From Chloroflexus aurantiacus J-10-fl (GTDB lineage: Bacteria > Chloroflexota > Chloroflexia > Chloroflexales > Chloroflexaceae), in assembly GCF_000018865.1 (NCBI RefSeq), contig NC_010175.1, positions 3,286,001 to 3,350,000 of the forward strand: a stretch of 64,000 nucleotides of DNA, read 5' to 3'. The position numbers were made by a program, and so were the translations under genes. Positions 675 through 53,005 of this stretch are shown one piece after another (positions within the stretch are counted from its first letter, which is position 1; each line of letters begins with the position of its first letter). The notes beneath the pieces were generated by a model. It did no database searches. It was given only the letters and a program-made list of their open reading frames with translations, and was not told the origin of the DNA.

Positions 675-1298
675 CTATGCATTACCCACATGTCGCGCTG
701 CGTTAGGCCGGACTGCCAGCGCTCCCCGTGGCGCGGGCTGGAAGCCCGCGTGCCGGCATCATCGCCACCACCGTCAGGTGCTGGCCGTGGCCGTTGGTGC
801 GCAGGCACGAATCTCTTGCAACATAACCGTCTACGGGCAGGAATCGCATGCATGCCTGACGGACGCGATGATCGGCACGATCCCATCCAGCACCCCCGTG
901 ACCAGGATGGGGGCACAGTACGCCACGCGCCGGATCGTGAGCACGGCTGGCGCGGCAGCATGGCTGCCGCACTCCATACGAGGGCAATCCGGGCTGGAAG
1001 CGGTATTCCTGCCGGTGGGCGGGATGAGAACGAGATACAGCTATTTGTTCGTGCTGTGACCATCCGGGGCACCGCTCCACCACGCGCCGGATCGTGAGCA
1101 CGACTGGCGCGGCAGCATGGCTGCCGCACTCCAAACCACGCGACACGCGCATAACGAGCGGGTACGGCAATCCATCCAGCACGTGCCGGCACGGCTGGAG
1201 CAGCGCACTGCCACCGGGCCAGTCGTTCAAAACAACACCAATAGCGATCATCCCCGCTGATACGCACGTGGTTGACACCAGTTGTGGGTAATGCATAG
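675..1298. mobile_element. Non-autonomous transposable element, 624 bp, 16-bp perfect inverted ends
   Basis: The left end CTATGCATTACCCACA (675-690) and right end TGTGGGTAATGCATAG (1283-1298) are perfect inverted complements. CTCCCAGGG flanks both sides (666-674 and 1299-1307), a 9-bp target duplication. Removing the element and one copy of the 9-mer restores a normal tandem-array unit, so this is a real insertion. No transposase is encoded. Inside are two copies of a ~49-bp module with the hairpin GCGGCAGC-ATG-GCTGCCGC (about 927-976 and 1084-1133). A diverged copy lies at 25518-26290. Nine-bp duplications occur with several IS families (IS4- and IS1-type), so the mobilising family is not assigned. 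Confidence 0.85.
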
Positions 1299-4933: not shown

Positions 4934-6641
4934 GATGTTCTGGTAGTCCATGTAGATGGATATGAACACAGCCAAGGTGGTAGGACTCTTCAATGGTTCG
5001 ACCACTTCCCAGTCCCTGATAGAAACCGACAGAAAATGCAATCGCAGCCTCATCGCTGATGGTATGATCCATGCCAATCACATATTCGATGTGTTGCGAG
5101 ATTGCTTTTGCTTGTGTTTCAGAATAACACGCATTCAAGATGACACAACGTACTTGATTAGAGAATTGTTTAAAGAGAGCTGCAAGCGCTTCCGGTTCAA
5201 CAGGTAGTGCTTTTCCTTGTCGATCTTCTAAGTATAATGCTCCACGAGCGTTACCATGTCCAGAAAAATGTACAATTTGTGGTTCTAGATCAAGGAGTGC
5301 TTGAATGATATCGATTGGTCGAACAGCCATGCGCTGATGTAGTATAAAACAATCTCGCAATTTAGACAATTGTAATCGCTCCTGTAGTTCACGAATTTCG
5401 GCACCTAGTCGAAGTCTATCCGTGTCTGTTGGATCACTAGATATGAATAAAATTGAAATAACAGGATTATTAGTATGTTTTAATGTTTTTCCCTGAAGAG
5501 TTGCTAACGTTTCTCTTGCTAATCTCATAGTAGGTGTTTTTTCGGCCGTTTTGCCGTCTGAGCATATCTGCAACAGAATCTGTTCGGCAATCTGTCTATC
5601 ATCAGCATTTAAGTCTCCTCGTTGAATCCGCTCACGAATGTATTCAACGATTGTTCGCCGTGCCTTCCAATAACTCATTGTGGAAAATGGTAGTAAAACT
5701 CGTAGCGTTTCTTTATCATTAACTCGGATAATTGATCGAATACAGTCATATTTAACTTCCCAGGATGGATGTTTTGCCGCTGGCAAAAATACTTCGGAGG
5801 AGTAGGTCGTATCTTGCTGAATAATTCGTCGGATTATTGATCCAAGACCAGTTGTAGAGCGAGGAAGGTGGGGATTGCTCAGAAGAATGTGAATTTGCTC
5901 TTTCGACAGCATTATGTTAGTGCTCGATAGGATGGTGATAATTTCTTTGAGTAAGGATGTGTTTGTACTTGCCAATATTTCATTAATGATTTCGGTTCTG
6001 CTGATTTGATGTTTGCATAGTATTGAAAACGCTTTCGCACGAACTGTAGATCGTAAATCGTTTTTACGTAAAAGTGCCTCAAGTGCTTGCTGGATAAGAT
6101 GGAGAGGATACATTGCAAGTATACGTTTTATTTCTTCATCAATATCTTCGTGGTGAAGGGTATTGTAAACCTCTGATAATACTCTGATGTATTGTTGATC
6201 TGGATTTGCAACACGGCCTGCATTGATTACGGAAAGTATCTTTTGAACAACGATTTCAATGCCACTGTCCCATGGGATTGCGATGATATTGCTAAGGAGC
6301 GGAGAGTATCTTGCTATTTCAGATACATTGAGTTGATACCATATTGGTATAATAAAAGGTTTTTGACCTTCCTGGATAGATCGTGTATACAGTCCTGCCA
6401 GTTCACGCAGAGGCCATTCTTTTGCGAAAAAATGGGGTGATAATACAACTATTCCAAATCGCGACTCTCGCAACCCTTCGTCAATGGATTGTAATAATTG
6501 CTTCCCTGGAGTGAGTTCAAACTGGTCGTACCAAACTCGCAATCCATTAACGCGTAATGCCTCAGCGAGTGGCGCTGCAACCGTTTCTCTATCTTCGCTA
6601 GCGTATGATATAAATACATCCCAGGCATTGGTATTGATCAT
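4905..6641 (-). CDS. TIR-HEAT-like-CHAT protein, putative immune effector
   Basis: A 578-residue cytosolic protein. Residues ~7-140 are a TIR domain (DVFISYASED, then VLSPHFFAKEWPLREL, whose Glu sits where TIR NADases have their catalytic Glu). Residues ~150-375 are helical and HEAT-like. Residues ~390-578 are a CHAT (caspase-fold) domain with the His in HFSGHG and the Cys in NACYS, so the protease dyad looks intact. TIR domains cleave NAD+ or make nucleotide signals in bacterial immunity, and CHAT proteases execute in several abortive systems; having both in one chain suggests a self-contained sensor/effector, which is inference. The gene is clearly more AT-rich than its neighbours and sits beside an IS and a toxin-antitoxin pair, suggesting transfer. 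No partner gene reads in the same operon. Confidence 0.8.
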   Translation of the reverse strand: MINTNAWDVFISYASEDRETVAAPLAEALRVNGLRVWYDQFELTPGKQLLQSIDEGLRESRFGIVVLSPHFFAKEWPLRELAGLYTRSIQEGQKPFIIPIWYQLNVSEIARYSPLLSNIIAIPWDSGIEIVVQKILSVINAGRVANPDQQYIRVLSEVYNTLHHEDIDEEIKRILAMYPLHLIQQALEALLRKNDLRSTVRAKAFSILCKHQISRTEIINEILASTNTSLLKEIITILSSTNIMLSKEQIHILLSNPHLPRSTTGLGSIIRRIIQQDTTYSSEVFLPAAKHPSWEVKYDCIRSIIRVNDKETLRVLLPFSTMSYWKARRTIVEYIRERIQRGDLNADDRQIAEQILLQICSDGKTAEKTPTMRLARETLATLQGKTLKHTNNPVISILFISSDPTDTDRLRLGAEIRELQERLQLSKLRDCFILHQRMAVRPIDIIQALLDLEPQIVHFSGHGNARGALYLEDRQGKALPVEPEALAALFKQFSNQVRCVILNACYSETQAKAISQHIEYVIGMDHTISDEAAIAFSVGFYQGLGSGRTIEESYHLGCVHIHLHGLPEHLTPVLLKRV

Positions 6642-6703
6642 AGCATTCCTCTACAACTACATAAGTCTTGCTCTACATTCTACGTGATGAGTATATTTTA
6701 TCT

Positions 6704-7558
6704 AGAACTCATTTCAAAATTCGGTCAATACACCACAGAATGATAGCGACGAGACAAAACGCACGATAGATATGCAGATGACAGTCATAGCGCACTACCA
6801 ACCGACGGCAATTGTCCATCCAACCGAAGCAACGCTCGACCTTCCAGTGTTGCCGGTAGCGTGTGCCGGCACGAATCGGATGCCCGCGCTTGGGGTACGT
6901 GCGGTTGGGCCGCCCAATAGGTGAAATGGTGGGTGTGATCCCTCGCCGACGCAGGGTCCGGCGAACCTCGGCGCTATCGTAGGCTTTATCTGCTACCAAT
7001 GCTTTCGGTCGCGTGGTGGGCCGACCGCGTCTGCGTAGAACACGAATGCTCTGCACCGTCGGTTCAGCCAGGGTGCGTTCGTGCGGTTGTGCGCTGTCCA
7101 TGTGCAGGCCGATGGGCACGCCGTTGCCATCGACCACGATCATCACCTTCGAGCCGTTGCCAACCTTCGTTTTGCCTCCGCCATGGCCCCCTTGTTCGCC
7201 GGAACGACGCTGCCGTCCAGCAACGCCTGTGCCCACGCCAGCTTGCCGTCGGCATCGCGGTGGCTCAAGCGGGTGCGCCAGCTGCGCTCCCACGTCTCGT
7301 CCTGCGACCACTCGTGCAATCGTCGCCAGCAGGTGCTGGGTGCCCCGTACTCCTTTGGCAGGTCTGCCCAGGCACAGCCCGTGTGCATCACAGACAGCGT
7401 GTCGTTCAGAGTGTCCGTCGGTCGTTGGTGCATGGACGACCCCGTGTGCTTTTTTTCTTGGGGATGAGCGGTTCGATCACCGCCTATTGGTCGTCGGTGA
7501 GGTCATGTCTGCTCATACCGCCATTCTAGCGTAAGCAGACATTTTTGAAATAGGTTCT
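6704..7558. mobile_element. IS5-family-like insertion sequence, inactivated
   Basis: The left end AGAACTCATTTCAAAAT (6704-6720) and the complement of the right end, AGAACCTATTTCAAAAAT (7541-7558), form imperfect terminal inverted repeats around a leftward transposase. The transposase stop overlaps the left inverted repeat. Flanks are CTA-GAAC on the left and GTTC-TG on the right, so a TA or 3-bp duplication is possible but not clear. The same ends occur on non-autonomous elements at 10065-10432 and 10574-10855, making this a candidate parent. Confidence 0.75.
6709..7516 (-). pseudogene. IS5-type DDE transposase, disrupted
   Basis: Reading from ATG 7516, the protein starts MSRHDLTDDQ and meets TAG at codon 11; the frame then continues as AVIEPLIPKKKS. 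Near 7405 it shifts frame (into LNDTLSVMHTGCAWADLPKEYG). Near 7185 it shifts again into GGHGGGKTKVGNGSK. The last shift could be the programmed frameshift known in some IS5 subgroups, but the first two are lesions. Catalytic signatures remain: DGSVV (first Asp), ADKAYDS (second Asp) and VERCFGWM (Glu). The element should not move by itself. Confidence 0.8.
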
Positions 7559-7682
7559 GGCCTTGGAGTAGAGCTTTGCTCTACGCAACGCGGCATAATA
7601 CGCTTTAAGTATACTGGCTAACATCCGGTTTCGTTACAACGACTCCAGATAGATGTCTTACTGGTCAGGCTCATTCTTCACC
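7559..7682. other. Short intergenic stretch with hairpin
   Basis: The only feature is a perfect inverted repeat GTAGAGC-TTT-GCTCTAC at 7568-7584, directly after the IS right end. It has no following T-run in either direction. Confidence 0.4.
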
Positions 7683-8069
7683 CTACCAGAGCCGACTCAT
7701 GCCATACATATCGAAAATACTATCGGCACTAATGATTGGAATTCCTTCAACCAGACCTTACGCAATCAGCAGACGATCAAACGGATCGCGATGATGAAAT
7801 GGTAACGTTGCAATCTTCAGAGTGTGATTGAGAGTGATGTCGAGCAGAGTAATATCGTTCAGTAGCAGTTGATGGGGTATAAACAGCTCGAAGGGCTGGC
7901 TCAATTGAAGCCGCCCCAGGCTGACTTTGATAGCCATCTCCCAAACGCTCGCCACACTGAGAAGCACTTCACTGGTTGGCTCCTCAATCAATGTACGAGC
8001 ACGGAGACTGAGGGACAGGTTATCTTCTATGAACCAAATGAAACTGTGAGTGTCGAGCAGTAGTTTCAC
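7683..8069 (-). pseudogene. vapC: PIN-domain (VapC-type) toxin, nonsense-truncated
   Basis: From ATG 8069 the frame encodes a PIN-domain RNase toxin: MKLLLDTHSFIWFIED supplies the first Asp, SVASVWEMAIKVSLG the Glu, and HHRDPFDRLLIA the third acidic motif. A TAA at 7758-7760 stops it after 103 residues. Past that codon the same frame continues for 24 residues (GLVEGIPIISADSIFDMYG...) to TAG at 7683-7685. This restores a normal ~128-residue toxin and includes the SAD aspartate missing from the truncated form. CAA in place of TAA would repair the gene. It overlaps the antitoxin gene by 4 bp. The toxin is probably inactive, which would relieve the need for the antitoxin. Confidence 0.75.
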
Positions 8070-8293
8070 ACTGTATATTCCTGAAAATCTTCCAGCGGCG
8101 CATCGAAGTCATCCGTCATACGGATCATACCTCTGGCACTACCAGGACGACGTGGCTGTCTGACCTGTTTGACCGGAACCAATCGAACGACATGGTGATC
8201 GTCGGTCGTTATCAAGATGACTTCGCCGCGTACCGCAGCATCGATCAGACTGGCCAGTTGCCCGGCTGCCTCGTCTACGCTGATTTGCTGCAT
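8066..8293 (-). CDS. Phd/YefM-type antitoxin
   Basis: A 75-residue protein (MQQISVDEAAGQLASLIDAA... EVILITTDDHHVVRLVPV) matching the Phd/YefM fold: an N-terminal DNA-binding/dimerisation half and a C-terminal acidic tail (MTDDFDAPLEDFQEY) that would bind the toxin. It is the first gene of a leftward two-gene operon, with an ATGA overlap to the PIN toxin. Antitoxins of this class neutralise the toxin and repress their own promoter. An AGTATA element at 8341-8346 could serve as the minus-strand -10, though no good -35 is visible. Confidence 0.75.
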   Translation of the reverse strand: MQQISVDEAAGQLASLIDAAVRGEVILITTDDHHVVRLVPVKQVRQPRRPGSARGMIRMTDDFDAPLEDFQEYTV

Positions 8294-8444
8294 CCCATGC
8301 CTCCTCTGACGTTAAAGTTGTTATCTTCCATATAACACGTAGTATAGCATGGCAAAACTGAAAGTGACTTCAGCGTAGCCAGACCATTACGACAGGGGAT
8401 ATTTGCCTGCTGAGAGTGCTCATCAATGTCGTGCTTGCCAATGG

Positions 8445-8784
8445 CTCTTTTCAACAGATGTAGAAGCTACAGACTACATGAGCGTGACGAGGACACACAG
8501 CATACCCGTGATGAGCAGGCCAACGGCACGCCACGCACCGGATCGTGAGCACGGCTGCTGCGGCAGCATGAATATCGCACACACGATGCAATACGCGCAT
8601 GATGTGCGGGCAAGGCGATTAGCCAGGCGGGTGATGGCACCATTGCATTGATGGTCGCTAGCGCTGCTCGCTGCCACACCGAGGTGTTGGGAGCAGGATA
8701 GGCAGGCTGTGGTGATTGGCAAGCGTTCGTGAGTCTGGGTGACAGTCTGGATGCATGACAGCACAGCTTTTATGCAATAAGCCT
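8445..8784. mobile_element. Decayed non-autonomous element sharing IS5-like ends (copy 1)
   Basis: It aligns by eye with elements at 10065-10432, 10574-10855 and ~41300-41622. The left end has CTTTTCAACAGATGTAGAAGC; the interior has GACGAGGACACACAGCAT and a degenerate form of the ~49-bp module (GCACCGGATCGTGAGCACGG..., about 8534-8581); the right end has CAGCTTTTATGCAATAAG. Terminal repeats are eroded and no protein is encoded. The rest of the 8294-9004 gap shows nothing I recognise. Confidence 0.55.
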
Positions 8785-9004
8785 GATTGGCGGTTATAGT
8801 TGTAAGATATTTTTAAGATAAGCTATATGCCCCCAATGTACACGAAAAACCCCACCTTCAGATCGGGAAATATTCCAATTCCCTGCTCGTCATACGAGAT
8901 GCAATGATTGATTACACACGCTAAAGTGTTATGGGGGCGGATAATACTTCTCTTTATGCCACAATCGCCCATGGTTACCTCTTTATTATAAAATGGGGGG
9001 TCTG

Positions 9005-9733
9005 ATGAATATCAATCGTCAGCAGTGGGATGCGTTGGGTAAGCTCAATCCCTTTTGGGCAATGACCGGTAAAAGCGACTGGGATTTGCCAGCTTTCTGG
9101 CAGACTGGCTATGTTCAGGTCGAGGATTTGCGTCGGGAAATTTCTCAACTCGGTTATCCGCAGCAGTTTCACCGGGTGCTTGATTTTGGGTGTGGAATCG
9201 GACGGCTGGCACCTGCGTTCTGCGCGTGGTTTGATGAATACGTTGGGTACGATGTCTCGGAAGCGCTAATACAGAAAGCGCGAAATTTACACAAAGACCT
9301 CGACCGGGCACAGTTTTTCGTTACACAGCGAGATCGCATTGATCTACCGGATAACAGTATCGATCTTGTCTTTTCATTTGGGGTTTTCCAGCATATTCCA
9401 GACCGCTACGCTCTATTTCAGATCGTTTCTGAATTCACTCGTGTGCTCAAACCAGGTGGTCTGATCTTTTTCAATGTTTGTCACCATATACGCTGGATGT
9501 ATCGTATACAGTTGCGTCGACGCTTATACTGGCTTGGCAAGCGGCTTGGTATCCTTGATTACCATCTGTTTTACCGGTTTAGGTTGTATCCGCAGTCAGT
9601 TCATGCGCTCTCACGTGAAGCATTGCAGCGCCATTTGCACACTCTCCCTGTGCACATCCTCTTCAGTCGATCCACATCGCCTCATGTTGCACCACATCAG
9701 CTGTGGGAGTATGCGCTGACAAAGCATGGCTAG
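9005..9733 (+). CDS. Class I SAM-dependent methyltransferase
   Basis: A 242-residue protein from ATG 9005, preferred over ATG 8993 because GGGGGG (8995-9000) sits at ribosome-binding distance. Motif I (VLDFGCGIGRLAP, ~residues 57-69) binds S-adenosylmethionine; VGYDVS is motif II; the SFGVFQHIPD and LKPGGLIFFN regions are motifs typical of Methyltransf_11/25. The substrate cannot be told. It stands alone between transposable-element remnants, and its base composition is slightly AT-richer than the flanking core genes, so it may be acquired cargo. Confidence 0.8.
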   Translation: MNINRQQWDALGKLNPFWAMTGKSDWDLPAFWQTGYVQVEDLRREISQLGYPQQFHRVLDFGCGIGRLAPAFCAWFDEYVGYDVSEALIQKARNLHKDLDRAQFFVTQRDRIDLPDNSIDLVFSFGVFQHIPDRYALFQIVSEFTRVLKPGGLIFFNVCHHIRWMYRIQLRRRLYWLGKRLGILDYHLFYRFRLYPQSVHALSREALQRHLHTLPVHILFSRSTSPHVAPHQLWEYALTKHG

Positions 9734-9804
9734 CAGTTGAGCGTGCGTGGGTCAGATGTACCGAATTGCTGACGGAACGCTGTGTTGATCATGGTGGCTA
9801 TGTC

Positions 9805-10060
9805 AAATCTTGACTAACAAGATGCACCGTCACCAGGCTCACGTACCGATCCCGACCCGCGCTACGACCTGTACCCGCCAGTGCGTGCAGTGGATGCGAA
9901 AGCGTGACTTCCGCACGGCCAAACGTGCGCCACGAGCAACCCGGCCTGGAAACTGTGTCCTCGTCGGTGTGTGATCTCACTGCGTGCGCAGCGGAAACTC
10001 TGTTCTCCGTATCCGCGCTCATGTCACTGTCAGCATGATGGTGCGATTATGGGCGATGAA
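9805..10060. repeat. Degenerate dispersed repeat (copy 1)
   Basis: It shares blocks with 24915-25290: TCAAATCTTGA, ACCAGGCTCACGTACCG, and ATCCGCGCTCA followed by GTGCGAT...GAGCGATGA (ATGGGCGATGA here). Order and direction are the same but the spacing differs. No inverted ends or coding capacity are visible. Nature unknown; possibly another element family. Confidence 0.5.
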
Positions 10061-10064
10061 TTTT

Positions 10065-10432
10065 AGCACTTATTTCAAAAAATATCTACATAGAAGCTAT
10101 CTCAACTCATTACTGACAGACTCTATGGTTGTGGCGAGCACACACAGTATCCGCAATTCCGGCAGGGTCAACGGCATGCCACGCACCGGATCGTGAGTAC
10201 GGCTGCTGCGGCAGCCATGGTGCCGCACTCCAAACGTCGCGACACGTGCATGACAAGCGGGTAAGGCAACCAATCCAGCGTGTGATAGAACCGTCGATGG
10301 TTGTCAGCCCTCCTTATTACCATACCGGCAGCCTGGGAGCAGGATATGCTGTCGTGGGTGATTGACAAGAGTTCATTCGCCTGTGTGACAGGCAAAGAGC
10401 ACGACAGCATGGGTTTTTATGAAACAAGCTCT
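10065..10432. mobile_element. Non-autonomous element with IS5-like ends (copy 2), 368 bp
   Basis: Left end AGCACTTATTTCAAAAAATA, right end (complement) AGAGCTTGTTTCATAAAAA. The interior shares CTCATTACTGACAGACTC, ACACACAGTATC, the ~49-bp hairpin module (10182-10232) and GGCAACCAATCCAG with its relatives at 10574-10855 and ~41300-41622. There is no transposase frame. Confidence 0.65.
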
Positions 10433-10573
10433 TGTAAACCGGATTTGACGTCAGATAATTATTCTGCGCCTGGTTTGCAACTGCGTGCTGTACCGGTCTC
10501 TACAACCGCTCGTGTCCACCCTTGTCAGACCTGCCGCTATGCCAAACCTCACCGCTGTACTCAGAAGTGGACT

Positions 10574-10855
10574 AGAACCTATTTCAAAAAACATCTACGA
10601 GAAGGCATCTTATTCATTGCCACTCGATTCGATGTTCATGACGAGCACACCCGGCATCCGCGTGACCAGCCGGGTCAACGACGTTACACGCGCCAGATCG
10701 TGAGCACGGCTGGCGCGGCAGCATGGCTGCCGCACTCCAAACTACGCCACACGTGGATGATGAGCGAGCAAGGCAACCAATCCAGTACGTGATGGCACCG
10801 GAGATAGTTATAGTTATTAGAGCGCGACAGTACAACTTTTTATGAAATAAGTTCT
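10574..10855. mobile_element. Non-autonomous element with IS5-like ends (copy 3), 282 bp, best preserved
   Basis: Left end AGAACCTATTTCAAAAAAC (10574-10592), right end complement AGAACTTATTTCATAAAAAG, flanked by ACT on both sides (10571-10573 and 10856-10858); read as TA around GAAC...GTTC, a 2-bp duplication fits as well. The left end matches the terminal repeat of the IS at 6704-7558 over 18 bases (AGAACCTATTTCAAAAA). The interior carries the ~49-bp module (10689-10740). This is a typical MITE-like arrangement: IS ends without a transposase. Confidence 0.75.
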
Positions 10856-10980
10856 ACTTATAGCATCACACGACAGGTGACAGGTGTTGTGCGCGATATA
10901 TGTATCACATTAGCTGGTCCATCGTTATCTGTGAGTGGGTGAATGATGGATGGCCCAAAACCCAACCCACAATCTCCCTG

Positions 10981-11085
10981 CACTCTCTTCTTCTACACTC
11001 TTATCTCCTACCTCCTATCTTCTACCTCCTACCTCCTATCTCCTATCTCCTATCTTCTACCTCCTATCTCCTGTCTTCTCATAGA
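10981..11085 (+). repeat. Pyrimidine-rich heptamer repeat upstream of the NEW3 gene
   Basis: Roughly a dozen alternating heptamers CTCCTAT / CTCCTAC / CTTCTAC in near-perfect register. The same motif family occurs at 1730-1815, again within ~150 bp upstream of a gene for an exported or membrane protein. Such short-unit runs can change length by slippage, though no expression role is shown here. Confidence 0.8.
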
Positions 11086-11194
11086 CAACACTAACACTCC
11101 GCTAATCTTCTTCTAATCATCATTCTCTATGTTCTCACAATTGAGCGGGTCACCGCGACAGATGATCAGGTGTCAGTAGTAAGAGAGGTGAACG

Positions 11195-12364
11195 ATGCGC
11201 ACGCTTCGCATCATTAGCGTACTTGTGATGCTGGCGCTTCTGATTGTTGCTGGTGCAGCGCCGGCGATGGCACAGGAAGGCCAGCGGAATCTCTTCTTTT
11301 ATACTCGTTATCCTTCACAAGAAGCTACAGTTGGTGATACGGTGACGTTCAAGCTGACGCTTGGTACGGAGACGACTCCCCAAATCGTGCGGCTTGGTCT
11401 GCGGAATGTGCCCAATGGCTGGACGGCAACGTTCCGCGGTGATGGCCGGGTGATCCAGTCGGCGTATGTTGAGCCGAACAACAATGCGACGTTTGATCTG
11501 CGGATTGAACCCCCTGCCGATGTGAAGGCCGGTGAGTACCAGATGCTGGCGGTTGCCACCGGTGTCTCGCAAGAGGTAACGCTTCCGATTGCCCTGACCC
11601 TCAAGGAGAAGACGACCAATCCAGCCGGTCTGTCGTTCAACGTTGATCTGCCCACACTGCGTGGTTCGCCGAGCACAACCTTCCGCTACAATGTGACCCT
11701 CAAGAATGAGAGCACTGAGGAGGTGCCAGTCAGTCTGCTCGCCGAAGCACCGCGCGGTTTCCAGGTCGATTTCAAACTCTCCGGTCAGAGCATTACCAGT
11801 GTGCCATTCGGCCCCAATGAGTCGAAGAATTTGAGTGTTGAGGTTCGTGCGCTGACTGATGTTCCTGCCGGTACCTATGAGATCGGTATTCTGGCCCGTG
11901 GTGGTGATTTGCAGGCAACCACACGCCTGGTCGCCGATATTACCGGTCAACCACAACTGCTCCTGACGACCCCTGATGGTCGGTTGTCGGGTGAAGCGCG
12001 CATTGGCGAACAGACTGAGGTGAAGCTGGTGGTAAGCAATAATGGTAGTGCGCCGGCCCGGAACATTGAGTTGAGCGCTTCGCCACCTGTTGGCTGGACG
12101 GTTGAGTTTGAGCCGAAGCAGATTCCAGAACTGGCTACCGATCAGGTAGTTGAAGTCACGGCGAAGGTGCAGCCCTCGAACCAGGCAATTGCCGGCGACT
12201 ATCTGGTGACCTTTACCGCTCGCCCGGCTGATGCCGCTGCCGCAACCAGTGAGTTCCGCTTCACTGTGCTGACCTCGACGCTGTGGGGGCTGGTTGGCAT
12301 TGCCCTGATCGCTGTTGCTGTGGTTGGGGTTGGCGTGGCAGTGATGCGGTTCGGACGGCGCTAG
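11195..12364 (+). CDS. Exported NEW3-domain (COG1470-type) surface protein with C-terminal anchor
   Basis: A 389-residue protein. Residues 1-26 are a signal peptide ending APAMAQ. Three Ig-like beta-sandwich repeats of ~110 residues follow (TVGDTVTFKL, STTFRYNVTLKNES, IGEQTEVKLVVSNNGSAPA), typical of NPCBM-associated NEW3 domains. The C-terminus is one transmembrane helix (LVGIALIAVAVVGVGVAVM) followed by FGRR. The protein would sit outside the membrane, anchored at its C-terminus. An AGAGAGGTG ribosome site precedes the ATG. It leads a cluster with an ABC ATPase and ABC-2 permease, and may be the substrate-binding or accessory part of that exporter, though a terminator-like hairpin lies between them. 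Confidence 0.75.
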   Translation: MRTLRIISVLVMLALLIVAGAAPAMAQEGQRNLFFYTRYPSQEATVGDTVTFKLTLGTETTPQIVRLGLRNVPNGWTATFRGDGRVIQSAYVEPNNNATFDLRIEPPADVKAGEYQMLAVATGVSQEVTLPIALTLKEKTTNPAGLSFNVDLPTLRGSPSTTFRYNVTLKNESTEEVPVSLLAEAPRGFQVDFKLSGQSITSVPFGPNESKNLSVEVRALTDVPAGTYEIGILARGGDLQATTRLVADITGQPQLLLTTPDGRLSGEARIGEQTEVKLVVSNNGSAPARNIELSASPPVGWTVEFEPKQIPELATDQVVEVTAKVQPSNQAIAGDYLVTFTARPADAAAATSEFRFTVLTSTLWGLVGIALIAVAVVGVGVAVMRFGRR

Positions 12365-24899: not shown

Positions 24900-25300
24900 G
24901 AGATACGCTCTGTTTTGTGATGTAACATCAAATCTTGAAAAGTACTGCGCACCATTGTTGAGGATACCTTCGCGTCCAGCGCCCTGCGGCGTGATCAGCG
25001 TGGTACTGATGCCGCGCCGTGTGGTTCGGGCTTCTAGCCTGAGCTTAAGAATCCCTGGTACCAGGCTCACGTACCGGCACGGGGAAACCACTCTGACTCA
25101 CACCTGAGCGAAAATGTGGCTGCTGCGGCAGCCACGCTGCCGCACTTCATACCACGCGACACGGGGAATCTGGTCTGGGAAGAGTATCCCCTGCGGAGCG
25201 TAAGATGACTCCGTGGGAAGGCTGGTTGGCGTATCCGCGCTCAGGTCGCTGGCGTGATAGTGCGATCCTGAGCGATGATCTCCGTTGAAGCAGACTTGAT
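24900..25300. repeat. Degenerate dispersed repeat (copy 2) with partial hairpin module
   Basis: It shares ordered blocks with 9805-10060 (TCAAATCTTGA near 24930, ACCAGGCTCACGTACCG near 25058, ATCCGCGCTCAGG and GTGCGATCCTGAGCGATGA near 25230-25280). It also contains a partial form of the ~49-bp hairpin module (GCTGCGGCAGCCACGCTGCCGCAC, 25120-25143, given here in position only). No coding capacity recognised. Confidence 0.5.
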
Positions 25301-25517: not shown

Positions 25518-26290
25518 CTATGCATTACCCACATGTCGCGCTGCGTTAGGTCGGGCTGCAAGCGCTCCCTGTGGAGGCATTCCATCCACCGCCGGCAGGG
25601 GCTGGCCATGGCCGCTGGTGCGCAGGCTGGACATCTTCCCCGTGGTCTGATCCAACGGCTACCTTCGCTGCTATCATCCGCTTTCCGTTCGTGACGTAAG
25701 ACCCACGCGACAGCAGGGCAACGCGATAGTGCCCAGGATCGCGCACGATGAGATAGGTTCGACTGATGAGCGAAGCGGTTGACAACCTGGGTATGGGTGA
25801 GGCATAGCGCTGCGCGGGAACGGGGAACGTAGCGGCTGCGATCACCTCTGAACAACCATCCATGGCACGCGATGCAAGACATTCCCATCCACCGCATCCC
25901 GTGGATGGTCAGGTGAACGGTACAGGCACCGTCCGTAGGGGCGGGTTCTCAACCCGCCCCTACCGAACCCACCCCTCCACACTACCGGCACCAGCACGCT
26001 GTGGGGTAGGCTACCGGCCTGCGCTCAGCCATCCCCATCAGCAGGGGTACGTACTGGCACGGGAGCCCGCTGCAATCCGCGCCGGATCGTGAGCACGGCT
26101 GGCGCGGCAGCATGGCTGCCGCACTCCACACTGCGCGCCACGCACATGATGCGCGTGTAAGGCACCCCATTCAGCACGTGATACCACGGCTGGAGCGGCG
26201 CACTGCCACCGGGTCAGTCGTCCACAACAGCACCTATGGCGATCATAGCCGCTGATACGCACGTGGTTAACACCAGTTGTGAATGCATAG
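25518..26290. mobile_element. Non-autonomous element, second copy of the 675-1298 family
   Basis: It begins CTATGCATTACCCACA (25518-25533), identical to the other copy, and ends TTGTGAATGCATAG, where GGT of the expected TTGTGGGTAATGCATAG is missing. The first ~120 bp and last ~220 bp align well with the 675-1298 element, including one ~49-bp hairpin module (26079-26128). The middle differs and holds a GTAGGGGC-type palindrome (25935-25963). No clear 9-bp duplication remains. A further end-like sequence, GGGTAATGCATAG at 26544-26556, followed by GGTGGTGGA, resembles GGTGGCGGA before the left end, so a larger original element is possible. Confidence 0.7.
25935..25963. repeat. GTAGGGGC-type palindrome
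   Basis: GTAGGGGCGGGTT-CTC-AACCCGCCCCTAC, perfect 13-bp arms, lying within the non-autonomous element. Same family as 14591-14619. Confidence 0.85.
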
Positions 26291-40593: not shown

Positions 40594-41231
40594 GCGCATT
40601 ATCGACAGTCTATGATCTTACCCGCCCAATCAGTTCGGGCATGCCGGTCTACCCGGGCGATCCGCCGGTGAAAATTACACCAATGCTTAGCCCGCCCTGG
40701 CAGGTCAGCTCACTTGCGTTGGGTAGCCATAGCGGGACACACCTCGATGCGCCGCGCCACCGGTTTGCGCACGGCCCTGGCATCGATGACTTCCCACCTG
40801 AACGCTTCATTGGTCAGGGTGAGGTGATCGATGTGCGTGGCTATCCGGCGAATACGCCGATTGAGCCGACGGTGTTGGACGGGTATCAGATCTGGCCGGG
40901 TATGATGGTATTCTTCCGTACAGGTTGGGATGATTTTTGGGGCAGCGATCACTATTTCCGCCATCCCTACCTCAGTGCTGCGCTGGCTAACACCCTGGTG
41001 CAGCAGCAGGTTGGATTGGTCGGAATCGATGCGTTGAGTGTTGACTCAACGGTTGATGGCAGCGATGCGGCGCATGTACGCTTGTTGGGGGCAGAGTGTT
41101 TGATCGTCGAAAATCTCTGTAATCTCGCCGTGCTGACCTGTGGCGCACGTTATACCTTTGCCTGTTTGCCCTTAAAACTGGCCGGGGCCGATGGTGCGCC
41201 GGCCCGCGTTCTGGCCTGGGCAGATGTTTAA
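40590..41231 (+). CDS. Cyclase-family hydrolase (kynurenine formamidase-like)
   Basis: 213 residues of the Cyclase/KynB family (COG1878). The metal-binding motif HSGTHLDAPRHR (~residues 47-58) is complete, and VDLT-like VYDLTRPISSGMPVYPGD opens the protein; a second conserved region is GLVGIDALSVDS near 145. Family members are metal-dependent amidases such as N-formylkynurenine formamidase. It overlaps the modC stop by 4 bp, so it is co-transcribed with the molybdate genes, but no functional link is evident. Confidence 0.83.
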   Translation: MSALSTVYDLTRPISSGMPVYPGDPPVKITPMLSPPWQVSSLALGSHSGTHLDAPRHRFAHGPGIDDFPPERFIGQGEVIDVRGYPANTPIEPTVLDGYQIWPGMMVFFRTGWDDFWGSDHYFRHPYLSAALANTLVQQQVGLVGIDALSVDSTVDGSDAAHVRLLGAECLIVENLCNLAVLTCGARYTFACLPLKLAGADGAPARVLAWADV

Positions 41232-41299
41232 GGACGGACAAGCACATACAGGCTCACGTATCTTCTGCCGCAGCAGGATGCCCCGGAGGGAGCTGCTAA

Positions 41300-41622
41300 T
41301 CTCGAAGTTCTCTCATTCATTACTGACAGACTCCATGATCGTGACGAGTACACACAGTATCACCGTGGCCAGCAGGGTGAACGGCGTGAGACGTGCCTGG
41401 CACGAAGGCTGGTACGACAGCTACGCTGCCGCACTCCAAGTGAGCGATACGCGCATAACGAGCGGGCAAGGTAATCAATTCAGTGGGTGATGGCACTGGA
41501 GATGGTCGTCAGCCCTCTTCGCTTCCGTCCCGTCAGACTGGAAGCAATATGTGATTGGCAAGCGTTTATGAGCCTGTGTGACAGCCTGTTAGCGCGACGG
41601 CACAGCTTTATGAGATGAATTC
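41300..41622. mobile_element. Decayed non-autonomous element sharing IS5-like ends (copy 4)
   Basis: Aligns with copies at 8445, 10065 and 10574: TTCATTACTGACAGACTCC, GAGTACACACAGTATC, a degenerate ~49-bp module (about 41390-41440), GGCAAGGTAATCAATTCAG, and near the right end CACAGCTTTATGAGATGAATTCT. Ends are eroded. The remaining gap up to 41738 holds only a promoter. Confidence 0.55.
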
Positions 41623-41697
41623 TGCTGCGAGTAGGCGATAGCATTTTCTCGTGAAGAAATCACCACCTGATTGATGATCGTCGCGGCGGTAGCTTTT

Positions 41698-41706
41698 TGC
41701 TATAAT
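41698..41706 (+). promoter_or_regulatory. Extended -10 promoter for the translin-family gene
   Basis: TGCTATAAT, an extended -10 with perfect TATAAT (41701-41706), 32 bp before the ATG. No consensus -35 at the usual distance. Confidence 0.5.
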
Positions 41707-41738
41707 ACCTTCTACACATAAGAGGCAAGAGGTTGGCT

Positions 41739-42371
41739 ATGAGTATAGAGCAGATAGTTGCTGGCTGTGTGGTGCAGCTTGAAAGCATTCATGCCGCACG
41801 TGAACGGGCAATTGCCGCCACGCGAATACTGGTACGGCAGAGTGCTAACAGCATTCGGGCTGCGCATCGTGGCGATTTTGCCACTGCCCGCCACTTGCTG
41901 GAGATGGCCGGTGAAGTTGTGGCTGAGCTGTACGACGCTACTGCCGGCGCGCCAGAGGTTCGTTATGCAGGGTATACCCAGGATGCCCTGAAAGAATTTG
42001 CCGAAGCGCATCTGGTCGTGGCATTCCTTGCCGGCGATGCGCCACCGACCGGCGAGATGATAGGTGTGGAACCGGCAGCCTATCTCAACGGTTTGGCTGA
42101 AGCTGCCAGTGAGCTGCGACGGGCAATTCTTGACGACTTGCGACGGGGAGATGTGTCGCGCGTTGAACAGTTGCTGACCGTCATGGACGATATCTACAGT
42201 GCGTTGATCACGGTGGATTACCCGGAAGCAATTACCGGGGGATTGCGTCGTTCAACTGATGCCTTACGTGCGGTGCTTGAACGGACTCGTGGTGATGTGA
42301 CGGCTGCCCTGCGCCAGGAACAGTTGACCGCTGCTATGCAGGCGCTTGAAGCACGTTTGAATGTTGATTGA
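41739..42371 (+). CDS. Translin-family RNA-binding protein (COG2178)
   Basis: 210 residues from ATG 41739 (AAGAGG at 41720-41725 region). All-helical. The family pattern is clear: ANSIRAAHRGDFATARHLLE (~35-54), AGYTQDALKEFAEAHLV, AYLNGLAEAASELRRAILDDLRRGD and the C-terminal DYPEAITGGLRRSTDALRAVLERTRGDVT, cited in parts. Eukaryotic translin/TRAX form octameric RNA/DNA-binding shells with RNase activity in TRAX; bacterial and archaeal members are poorly studied. The acidic catalytic residues of TRAX cannot be confirmed by eye. It is monocistronic. Confidence 0.78.
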   Translation: MSIEQIVAGCVVQLESIHAARERAIAATRILVRQSANSIRAAHRGDFATARHLLEMAGEVVAELYDATAGAPEVRYAGYTQDALKEFAEAHLVVAFLAGDAPPTGEMIGVEPAAYLNGLAEAASELRRAILDDLRRGDVSRVEQLLTVMDDIYSALITVDYPEAITGGLRRSTDALRAVLERTRGDVTAALRQEQLTAAMQALEARLNVD

Positions 42372-52646: not shown

Positions 52647-53005
52647 CGATCAAGGAGCAGGTAACCCAGGTTGCTACCTTTATCACCACAGAGGCACGGA
52701 GGGCATAGAGGATAGGCATAACCCGAAGTGCTACCGTAAGGCGTGAAGGTGCGTGTCGATGGGAACTGGCTGCTACCCGCATGGTTTATACAGTTCAGTT
52801 ACGCGGCACGGTATTGTGCGCAGCGTCGTGCTGTTCATCATGGCAGTCAGCCTCACGTGGCCTACTCACAGCGTAAGTGGCAGCCTGGGTTAGGTAAGTA
52901 AGGAACGAGAAGTGATCTATATTAATGCCGTTGCCGGGAAGTATCTCAGGTACGTATACTTGAAAAACAGGAAAAAACTTTGGTACCTGGAATACGGAGC
53001 GATGT
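52647..53005. other. Intergenic stretch, nothing recognised
   Basis: Contains an ATCACCACAGAGGCACGGAGG fragment (about 52681-52701) that resembles the ACCACAGAGACACAGAGGG at 411-430, a minor dispersed repeat. No gene, hairpin terminator or strong promoter seen. Confidence 0.4.

Follow-up and report, generated by a model that had tools for sequence, protein, structure and literature searches.

The genome of the hot-spring bacterium Chloroflexus aurantiacus J-10-fl (5,258,541 bp, single contig) harbours a family of MITEs that, judging from sequence comparisons, was very probably mobilised in trans by an insertion sequence (IS) of the IS5 family (IS427-like) whose ends the elements bear, with a captured REP module as the passenger that forms their body. 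The transposase of an intact IS copy elsewhere in the genome would bind the 15-17-nt MITE ends in trans, excise the element and insert it at TA, most often in CTA, duplicating the TA. A REP-bearing module of ~190 bp, with the hairpin of the genome's RAYT/REP system, would have become enclosed by IS-type ends and would then have multiplied as a passenger of the MITE. The preliminary description of the window (i.e., the whole 64,000-nt stretch analysed here) had proposed non-autonomous elements with the ends of the local IS, and this interpretation is supported, since the elements share the ends and TA flanks of the IS, they are too short to encode its transposase, the IS copy of the window is dead and five of the six IS copies in the genome look intact. 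It needs two corrections, one on the ends of two window copies (below) and one on the body, which did not arise from the IS and instead represents a REP-bearing module with a history of its own.

The window copies were placed with a profile built from 16 long-form copies, and positions 6500-11200 and 41000-42000 were in addition inspected directly as sequence. The mapped features are as follows:

675..1298, plus strand: family-B element whose 16-bp inverted ends (CTATGCATTACCCACA) match perfectly; it holds two REPs at a distance of 157 bp and has its REP core in common with the MITE
6704..7558, minus strand: dead copy of the IS5-family IS (IS427-like orfA/orfB layout), with orfA ending after 10 aa
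8469..8781, plus strand: long-form MITE without left end and with a decayed REP (profile positions 53-364, E 6.7e-69; no REP match there)
10065..10432, plus strand: almost full-length MITE of the long form, with left end AGCACTTATTTCAAAAAA and a right flank other than TA (profile positions 5-368, matched at 10069-10432, E 1.2e-108)
10208..10232, minus strand: REP palindrome within the long-form MITE 10065-10432, its tag reading ACTCCA on the plus strand
10574..10855, plus strand: short-form MITE with both ends intact and TA on each side (from sequence and genome search; profile positions 3-239, matched at 10576-10809)
10715..10739, minus strand: REP palindrome within the short-form MITE 10574-10855 (REP search)
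25086..25182, plus strand: REP-core fragment
26055..26290, plus strand: right-hand half of a family-B element, containing a single REP
41300..41623, plus strand: long-form MITE without intact left end (profile positions 27-368, E 5.9e-80)
41414..41438, minus strand: partly decayed REP palindrome within the MITE 41300-41623 (REP search)

The short-form copy, 10574-10855, starts with GAACCTATTTCAAAAAACATCT directly after a TA (whose A is base 10574) and stops with TTTTTATGAAATAAGTTC directly before a TA; the ends initially quoted for it were exact. The left end of 10065-10432 reads AGCACTTATTTC, and this copy is 76% identical to 10574-10855 over 184 nt. Sequences at 8445-8784, 10065-10432 and 41300-41622 had been described as further copies with the same order of internal blocks; the block order holds, but in neither 8469-8781 nor 41300-41623, as delimited here, are both ends still present, the intact left end being absent from each. 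An Rfam search of the window and four loci gave no family at gathering score, and therefore no family of that library explains the MITE body. We also noticed a CTCCTAYCTYC-like tract at 10998-11081, next to the MITE, and similar tracts lie beside other MITE copies (e.g., at loci L013 and L024).

On the genome scale, searches with the element and with the IS recovered both the MITE family and six IS copies. The 282-bp query (10574-10855) gave at least 63 matches in its own genome at E<=1e-3 (40 of 383 first-look candidates scored), and the 368-bp query (10065-10432) gave at least 54 (40 of 332 scored). The 15-nt end pattern GAACNTNTTTCANAA, with one mismatch allowed, occurred 105+109 times, far above the 7+7 occurrences of its reversed control, which suggests about 100 element equivalents in the genome; these counts rule out chance and confirm the family. 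A second estimate, of ~90 MITEs per genome, came from a 400-kb sample, taken at even spacing from the rest of the genome, in which seven profile matches were read from the hit table as MITE copies that approach a model end to within 30 positions; five shorter matches beginning near the left end (two of family B, three short or weak) were left out. The family exists in two forms, a short one of ~277 bp and a long one of ~365 bp, the former being without about 90 bp of the latter. These sizes, too short for the IS transposase gene, reappear among the 52 facing end pairs found in own-genome loci, where 18 pairs were 260-299 bp apart, 15 were 340-399 bp apart and six, corresponding to the IS, were 840-859 bp apart. 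Moreover, the terminal inverted repeats stand at consistent termini: all 14 TIR-bounded elements of 230-420 bp, taken from loci that were not picked by the hairpin, belong to the MITE family, and no competing set of ends emerged among them. Mean pairwise identity was 84% among 21 short-form copies and 66% among 14 long-form copies, a divergence indicating that most movement is old.

The insertion sites agree with an IS427-like transposition. In this group of the IS5 family, the target duplication is TA or of the CTAG type. Here, TA flanked both sides in 19 of the 28 MITE copies checked and, by reading of the alignment, in four of the six IS copies. When exact ends of MITE and IS were pooled, with overlapping loci counted more than once, 89 of 108 were preceded by TA (47 CTA, 23 GTA, 16 TTA and 3 ATA). 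In addition, element-free paralogous sites were found for two MITE copies. For the copy at 700967 (locus L011), the cleaner case, the joined flanks can be aligned through the junction with the adjacent tandem unit (89% identity), and the junction reads GGGCATCGCT/AGTGTGAC against GGGCATCGCC/AGTGTGAC in the element-free unit. The copy at 4329026 (locus L050) is inserted in a ~200-bp dispersed repeat of which other copies are without the MITE, these alignments having 73-79% identity and small gaps near the junction. One of the members aligned in this way lies in the window, at 52663-52879; the repeat has copies in more than 10 further places, one of them split by a MITE.

The putative source of the transposase is an IS of ~853 bp, with ends GAACCTATTTCAAAAATGTCT and GAACTCATTTCAAAATTCGGTCA, present in six near full-length genome copies including 6704-7558, the other copies being 83-85% identical to that of the window. 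As first described, the ends of 10574-10855 are nearly those of this IS: the left ends are identical over 16 nt (GAACCTATTTCAAAAA, with one A/G change in many MITE copies), and the right ends (GAACTTATTTCATAA in the MITE and GAACTCATTTCAAAA in the IS) are alike at 13 of 15 positions. The two differing positions leave room for a lost or unseen sibling IS as the true source. In its stronger form, this alternative states that the MITE ends belong functionally to an extinct relative and that the present IS copies cannot move the MITEs, and both the right-end difference and the high divergence of the MITE copies would fit it. However, the identity of the left ends over 16 nt, the same TA flanks and the clean ends of several MITE and IS copies make such a scenario unlikely, and we favour this IS as the probable supplier of the transposase.

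The coding capacity of the IS copies is compatible with this role. The window copy had been called dead, with amplification ascribed to another copy; indeed, its orfA is broken after 10 aa, and the copies still present make such amplification possible, five of the six being structurally intact-looking. In these five, both frames are open and overlap, orfA having 123 aa, and orfB is open over 263 aa in four copies and over 166 aa in one. In the copy at G000:C1:3277414, orfA matches PF13340 (107 bits) and orfB matches PF01609 (53 bits), both being domains of IS5-type transposases. In the IS427-like group, a programmed frameshift yields OrfAB. A fused product of the present copies would need a frameshift in the orfA/orfB overlap, where no conserved slippery heptamer was seen.

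Many MITEs are internal-deletion derivatives of an IS, and an origin of this kind from the local IS would account for the common ends and the TA flanks. The composition of the body makes it highly improbable here. Indeed, the whole-IS query found, in its own genome, the six IS copies and one 24-nt end but no MITE body (40 of 61 candidates scored), and the copies seen contain no IS sequence inside their ends, apart from at most some bases inside the left end. Furthermore, the body holds a REP and is common to a second family: a core of ~190 bp is shared by the MITE and by an inverted-repeat family (B) with other ends, the members of which often have two hairpins 157 or 144 bp apart. The family-B element at 675-1298 may represent the MITE of a different transposon; its right half occurs again at 26055-26290. 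We also considered a late addition of the left IS-type end on the outer side of an older MITE terminus (AGAAGTTATCTCATT), at which several old copies start; this idea was dropped because a sequence recognisably related to the outer one (GAACCTGGTGCAACAAAACGTCTACG) occupies the corresponding position in family B.

At the centre of the MITE lies a hairpin, TGGAGTGCGGCAGC-CAT-GCTGCCGC, which with up to three mismatches has 304+280 strand matches in the genome, versus 1+1 for the reversed pattern (a single site can count on both strands). It carries a one-sided tag, TGG(A/C)GT, that is GGAG or GGCG and not GTAG or GTGG, and we therefore class it as a REP-like repeat with a tag of its own, apart from the canonical GTAG REPs. 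Relative to this tag, the loop is found in either orientation (GGCAGC-CAT-GCTGCC and GGCAGC-ATG-GCTGCC), as though recombination had taken place between hairpin arms. A 464-kb sample (the window and 20 stretches) contained 32 distinct REP sites, and among 30 sample palindromes, with the tag ignored, seven lay in end-reaching MITEs, 16 in sequence homologous to the MITE core and seven elsewhere.

The genome also has a RAYT gene of 184 aa (G000:C1:3878420-3878974, minus strand; locus L155, 2921-3475). The gene is intact, its product matches NF047646 (REP-associated tyrosine transposase) with 110.8 bits against a cut-off of 80 and has the motifs HYH and YVHNNP, and REP hairpin arrays flank it on both sides. 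In two congeners, a RAYT orthologue of 60-61% identity likewise stands between hairpins, with a diverged stem (GCGGCAGT...ACTGCCGC).

An intact and REP-flanked RAYT invites the view that the REP core is active, i.e., that the RAYT acts on the MITE hairpin, two transposases serve one element and each system helps the other to spread. The presence of the REP in 11 of the 14 TIR-bounded elements chosen independently of the hairpin (three are without it), and that of the core in tandem arrays as well as in two families that differ in their ends, could be read in the same way. Against this, in the 14-element set, which was not chosen by REP, the conservation of the REP window ranks just 45 of 345; the higher ranks it reached elsewhere (5 of 253, 3 of 315) stem from similarity-selected sets, which favour copies that keep the REP. 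Selection on the REP inside the MITE is accordingly not claimed here, the strong ranks having failed to hold in the set not chosen by similarity. Tandem arrays do not help this alternative either: REP-holding arrays exist, with periods of 59 to 384, but they were picked through REP matches, and in the 464-kb sample two of the 23 long-period arrays (>=60) hold a REP, so that the idea of REPs driving tandem arrays was also discarded. We saw no sign of a benefit of the REP to the MITE and no support for a role inside it; joint mobilisation by both systems is improbable in our view, and the REP would play no part in MITE movement. Three near-perfect tandem arrays were also observed: a 374-bp unit in 10 copies with one REP each (G000:C1:3832200-3836000), a 384-bp unit in about five copies with one REP each (G000:C1:3001700-3003500) and a 286-bp unit in six copies, each with the MITE right end and one REP (G000:C1:4983950-4985670).

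The distribution of the parts outside C. aurantiacus bears on the direction of the capture. In 40 relatives, for each of which up to 18 candidates were scored, the MITE query matched by its hairpin alone, in stretches of 23-39 nt and in eight genomes, and nothing of the MITE beyond the hairpin was found. The 22-nt MITE left end had no exact match in a collection of 84,980 species, which may leave out the own genome, and the IS was not found in 15 other genomes, the best-scoring orfB relative being 39% identical. As far as searched, the MITE and the IS thus appear to share one host and the REP to be far wider. At one mismatch, REP strand matches numbered 420, 354 and 481 in three Chloroflexus genomes with a close RAYT and 74, 86, 22, 1 and 0 in five others. 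For four of these five, the Chloroflexota search gave no RAYT match, and the genome with 86 REP matches (82% complete, outside the listing of the RAYT search) gave no Y1_Tnp match. RAYT was detected at E<=1e-20 in seven of 301 Chloroflexota genomes; four of these RAYTs, from outside the genus Chloroflexus (38-53% identity), come from genomes with no match of the REP pattern, so within Chloroflexota the pairing holds for close RAYTs only.

Beyond these relatives, the tagged hairpin with any loop was found exactly in at least 120 stretches of other genomes, most of the records being MAG contigs, and the matches listed include Sumerlaeota, bacterium HR30, Hydrogenedentota, Acidobacteria, Planctomycetota, WOR-3, Verrucomicrobia, Bacteroidetes, Latescibacterota and other Chloroflexi. 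Three of the 120 listed loci, all selected for holding the hairpin, encode a RAYT of 55-65% identity to the Chloroflexus protein and have the hairpin nearby on either side; they come from HR30 (L330), a member of the Bacteroidetes (L357) and a Latescibacterota MAG (L361). In the listed loci, neighbouring hairpins less than 300 bp from each other form 95 pairs, of which 76 are inverted, with spacings of 108-123 bp in many of them and a REPIN-like layout, whereas the hairpins of the C. aurantiacus arrays mostly point the same way. As far as searched, the MITE is confined to the host of the IS, and both REP and RAYT have a broader distribution; capture of the REP module by IS-type ends is therefore likelier than the reverse.

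The unusual tag may have a counterpart in the RAYT protein. E. coli TnpAREP (4er8) aligns with the Chloroflexus RAYT at E 7e-7, and PMC6006769 discusses residues W94, Q95, E100, H101 and R104 of the former for the GTAG-contact region. According to this alignment, the Chloroflexus RAYT has W, F, D, T and T at these positions, four of the five being different. As the same source also reports the E-to-D change in RAYTs with GTAG REPs, the telling changes are those at Q95, H101 and R104. The stretch WFQYWDTCLTYE occupies the place of the tag-contact region, and RAYTs that are at least 53% identical have WFQYWDT in common, with WQNYWDT or WYSYWDT in more distant ones. One could speculate, although we consider it doubtful, that a RAYT branch with a changed tag-contact region uses GGAG REPs over several phyla, and that in C. 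aurantiacus this REP became the MITE core, so that a DDE transposase would act on the ends of a single element and a HuH transposase on its middle.

Our literature search retrieved no paper on MITEs or REPs of Chloroflexus. When compared with known systems, as they are presented in the parts of the cited sources available to us, the MITE family itself is of the ordinary IS5 type. Bacterial MITEs such as RUP, NEMIS and Nezha (PMC3733652) are likewise short, noncoding and present in many copies with IS-type inverted ends, and trans-mobilisation is assumed for them; unlike these, the C. aurantiacus body is a module with the REP of a separate RAYT system and not the remains of an IS. Similarly, the hairpin in hundreds of copies, the intact REP-flanked RAYT and the HuH and Y---NP motifs resemble described REP/RAYT systems (NF047646; PMC3733652, PMC6006769). 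Those systems, however, have GTAG or GTGG as tag instead of GGAG/GGCG, and their REPs stand alone or as inverted pairs, whereas 23 of the 30 sampled C. aurantiacus REPs lie in larger homologous modules. REPs regularly embedded in another repeat are known as GTAG-15 of A. variabilis and CGTC-1 of H. neapolitanus, but the hosts there are short palindromes for which the part of PMC3733652 at hand names no transposase, while the C. aurantiacus host is a MITE with IS5-type ends. BrickBuilt of Porphyromonas gingivalis (PMC4596501) is also a MITE containing another kind of repeat, in that case a 23-nt minisatellite rather than a REP.

The combination of an IS5-type MITE with an inner REP is therefore the unusual feature, and it points to a route by which a REP can be dispersed independently of its own transposase, carried within a MITE. 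A GGAG-tagged REP with its RAYT would extend the tags (GTAG, GTGG and CGTC) described in the available parts of the sources cited above. Finally, this REP occurs alone as well as in MITEs, family B and tandem arrays, and sister species differ in whether they have the RAYT, which together provides a natural set for testing what copies REPs.
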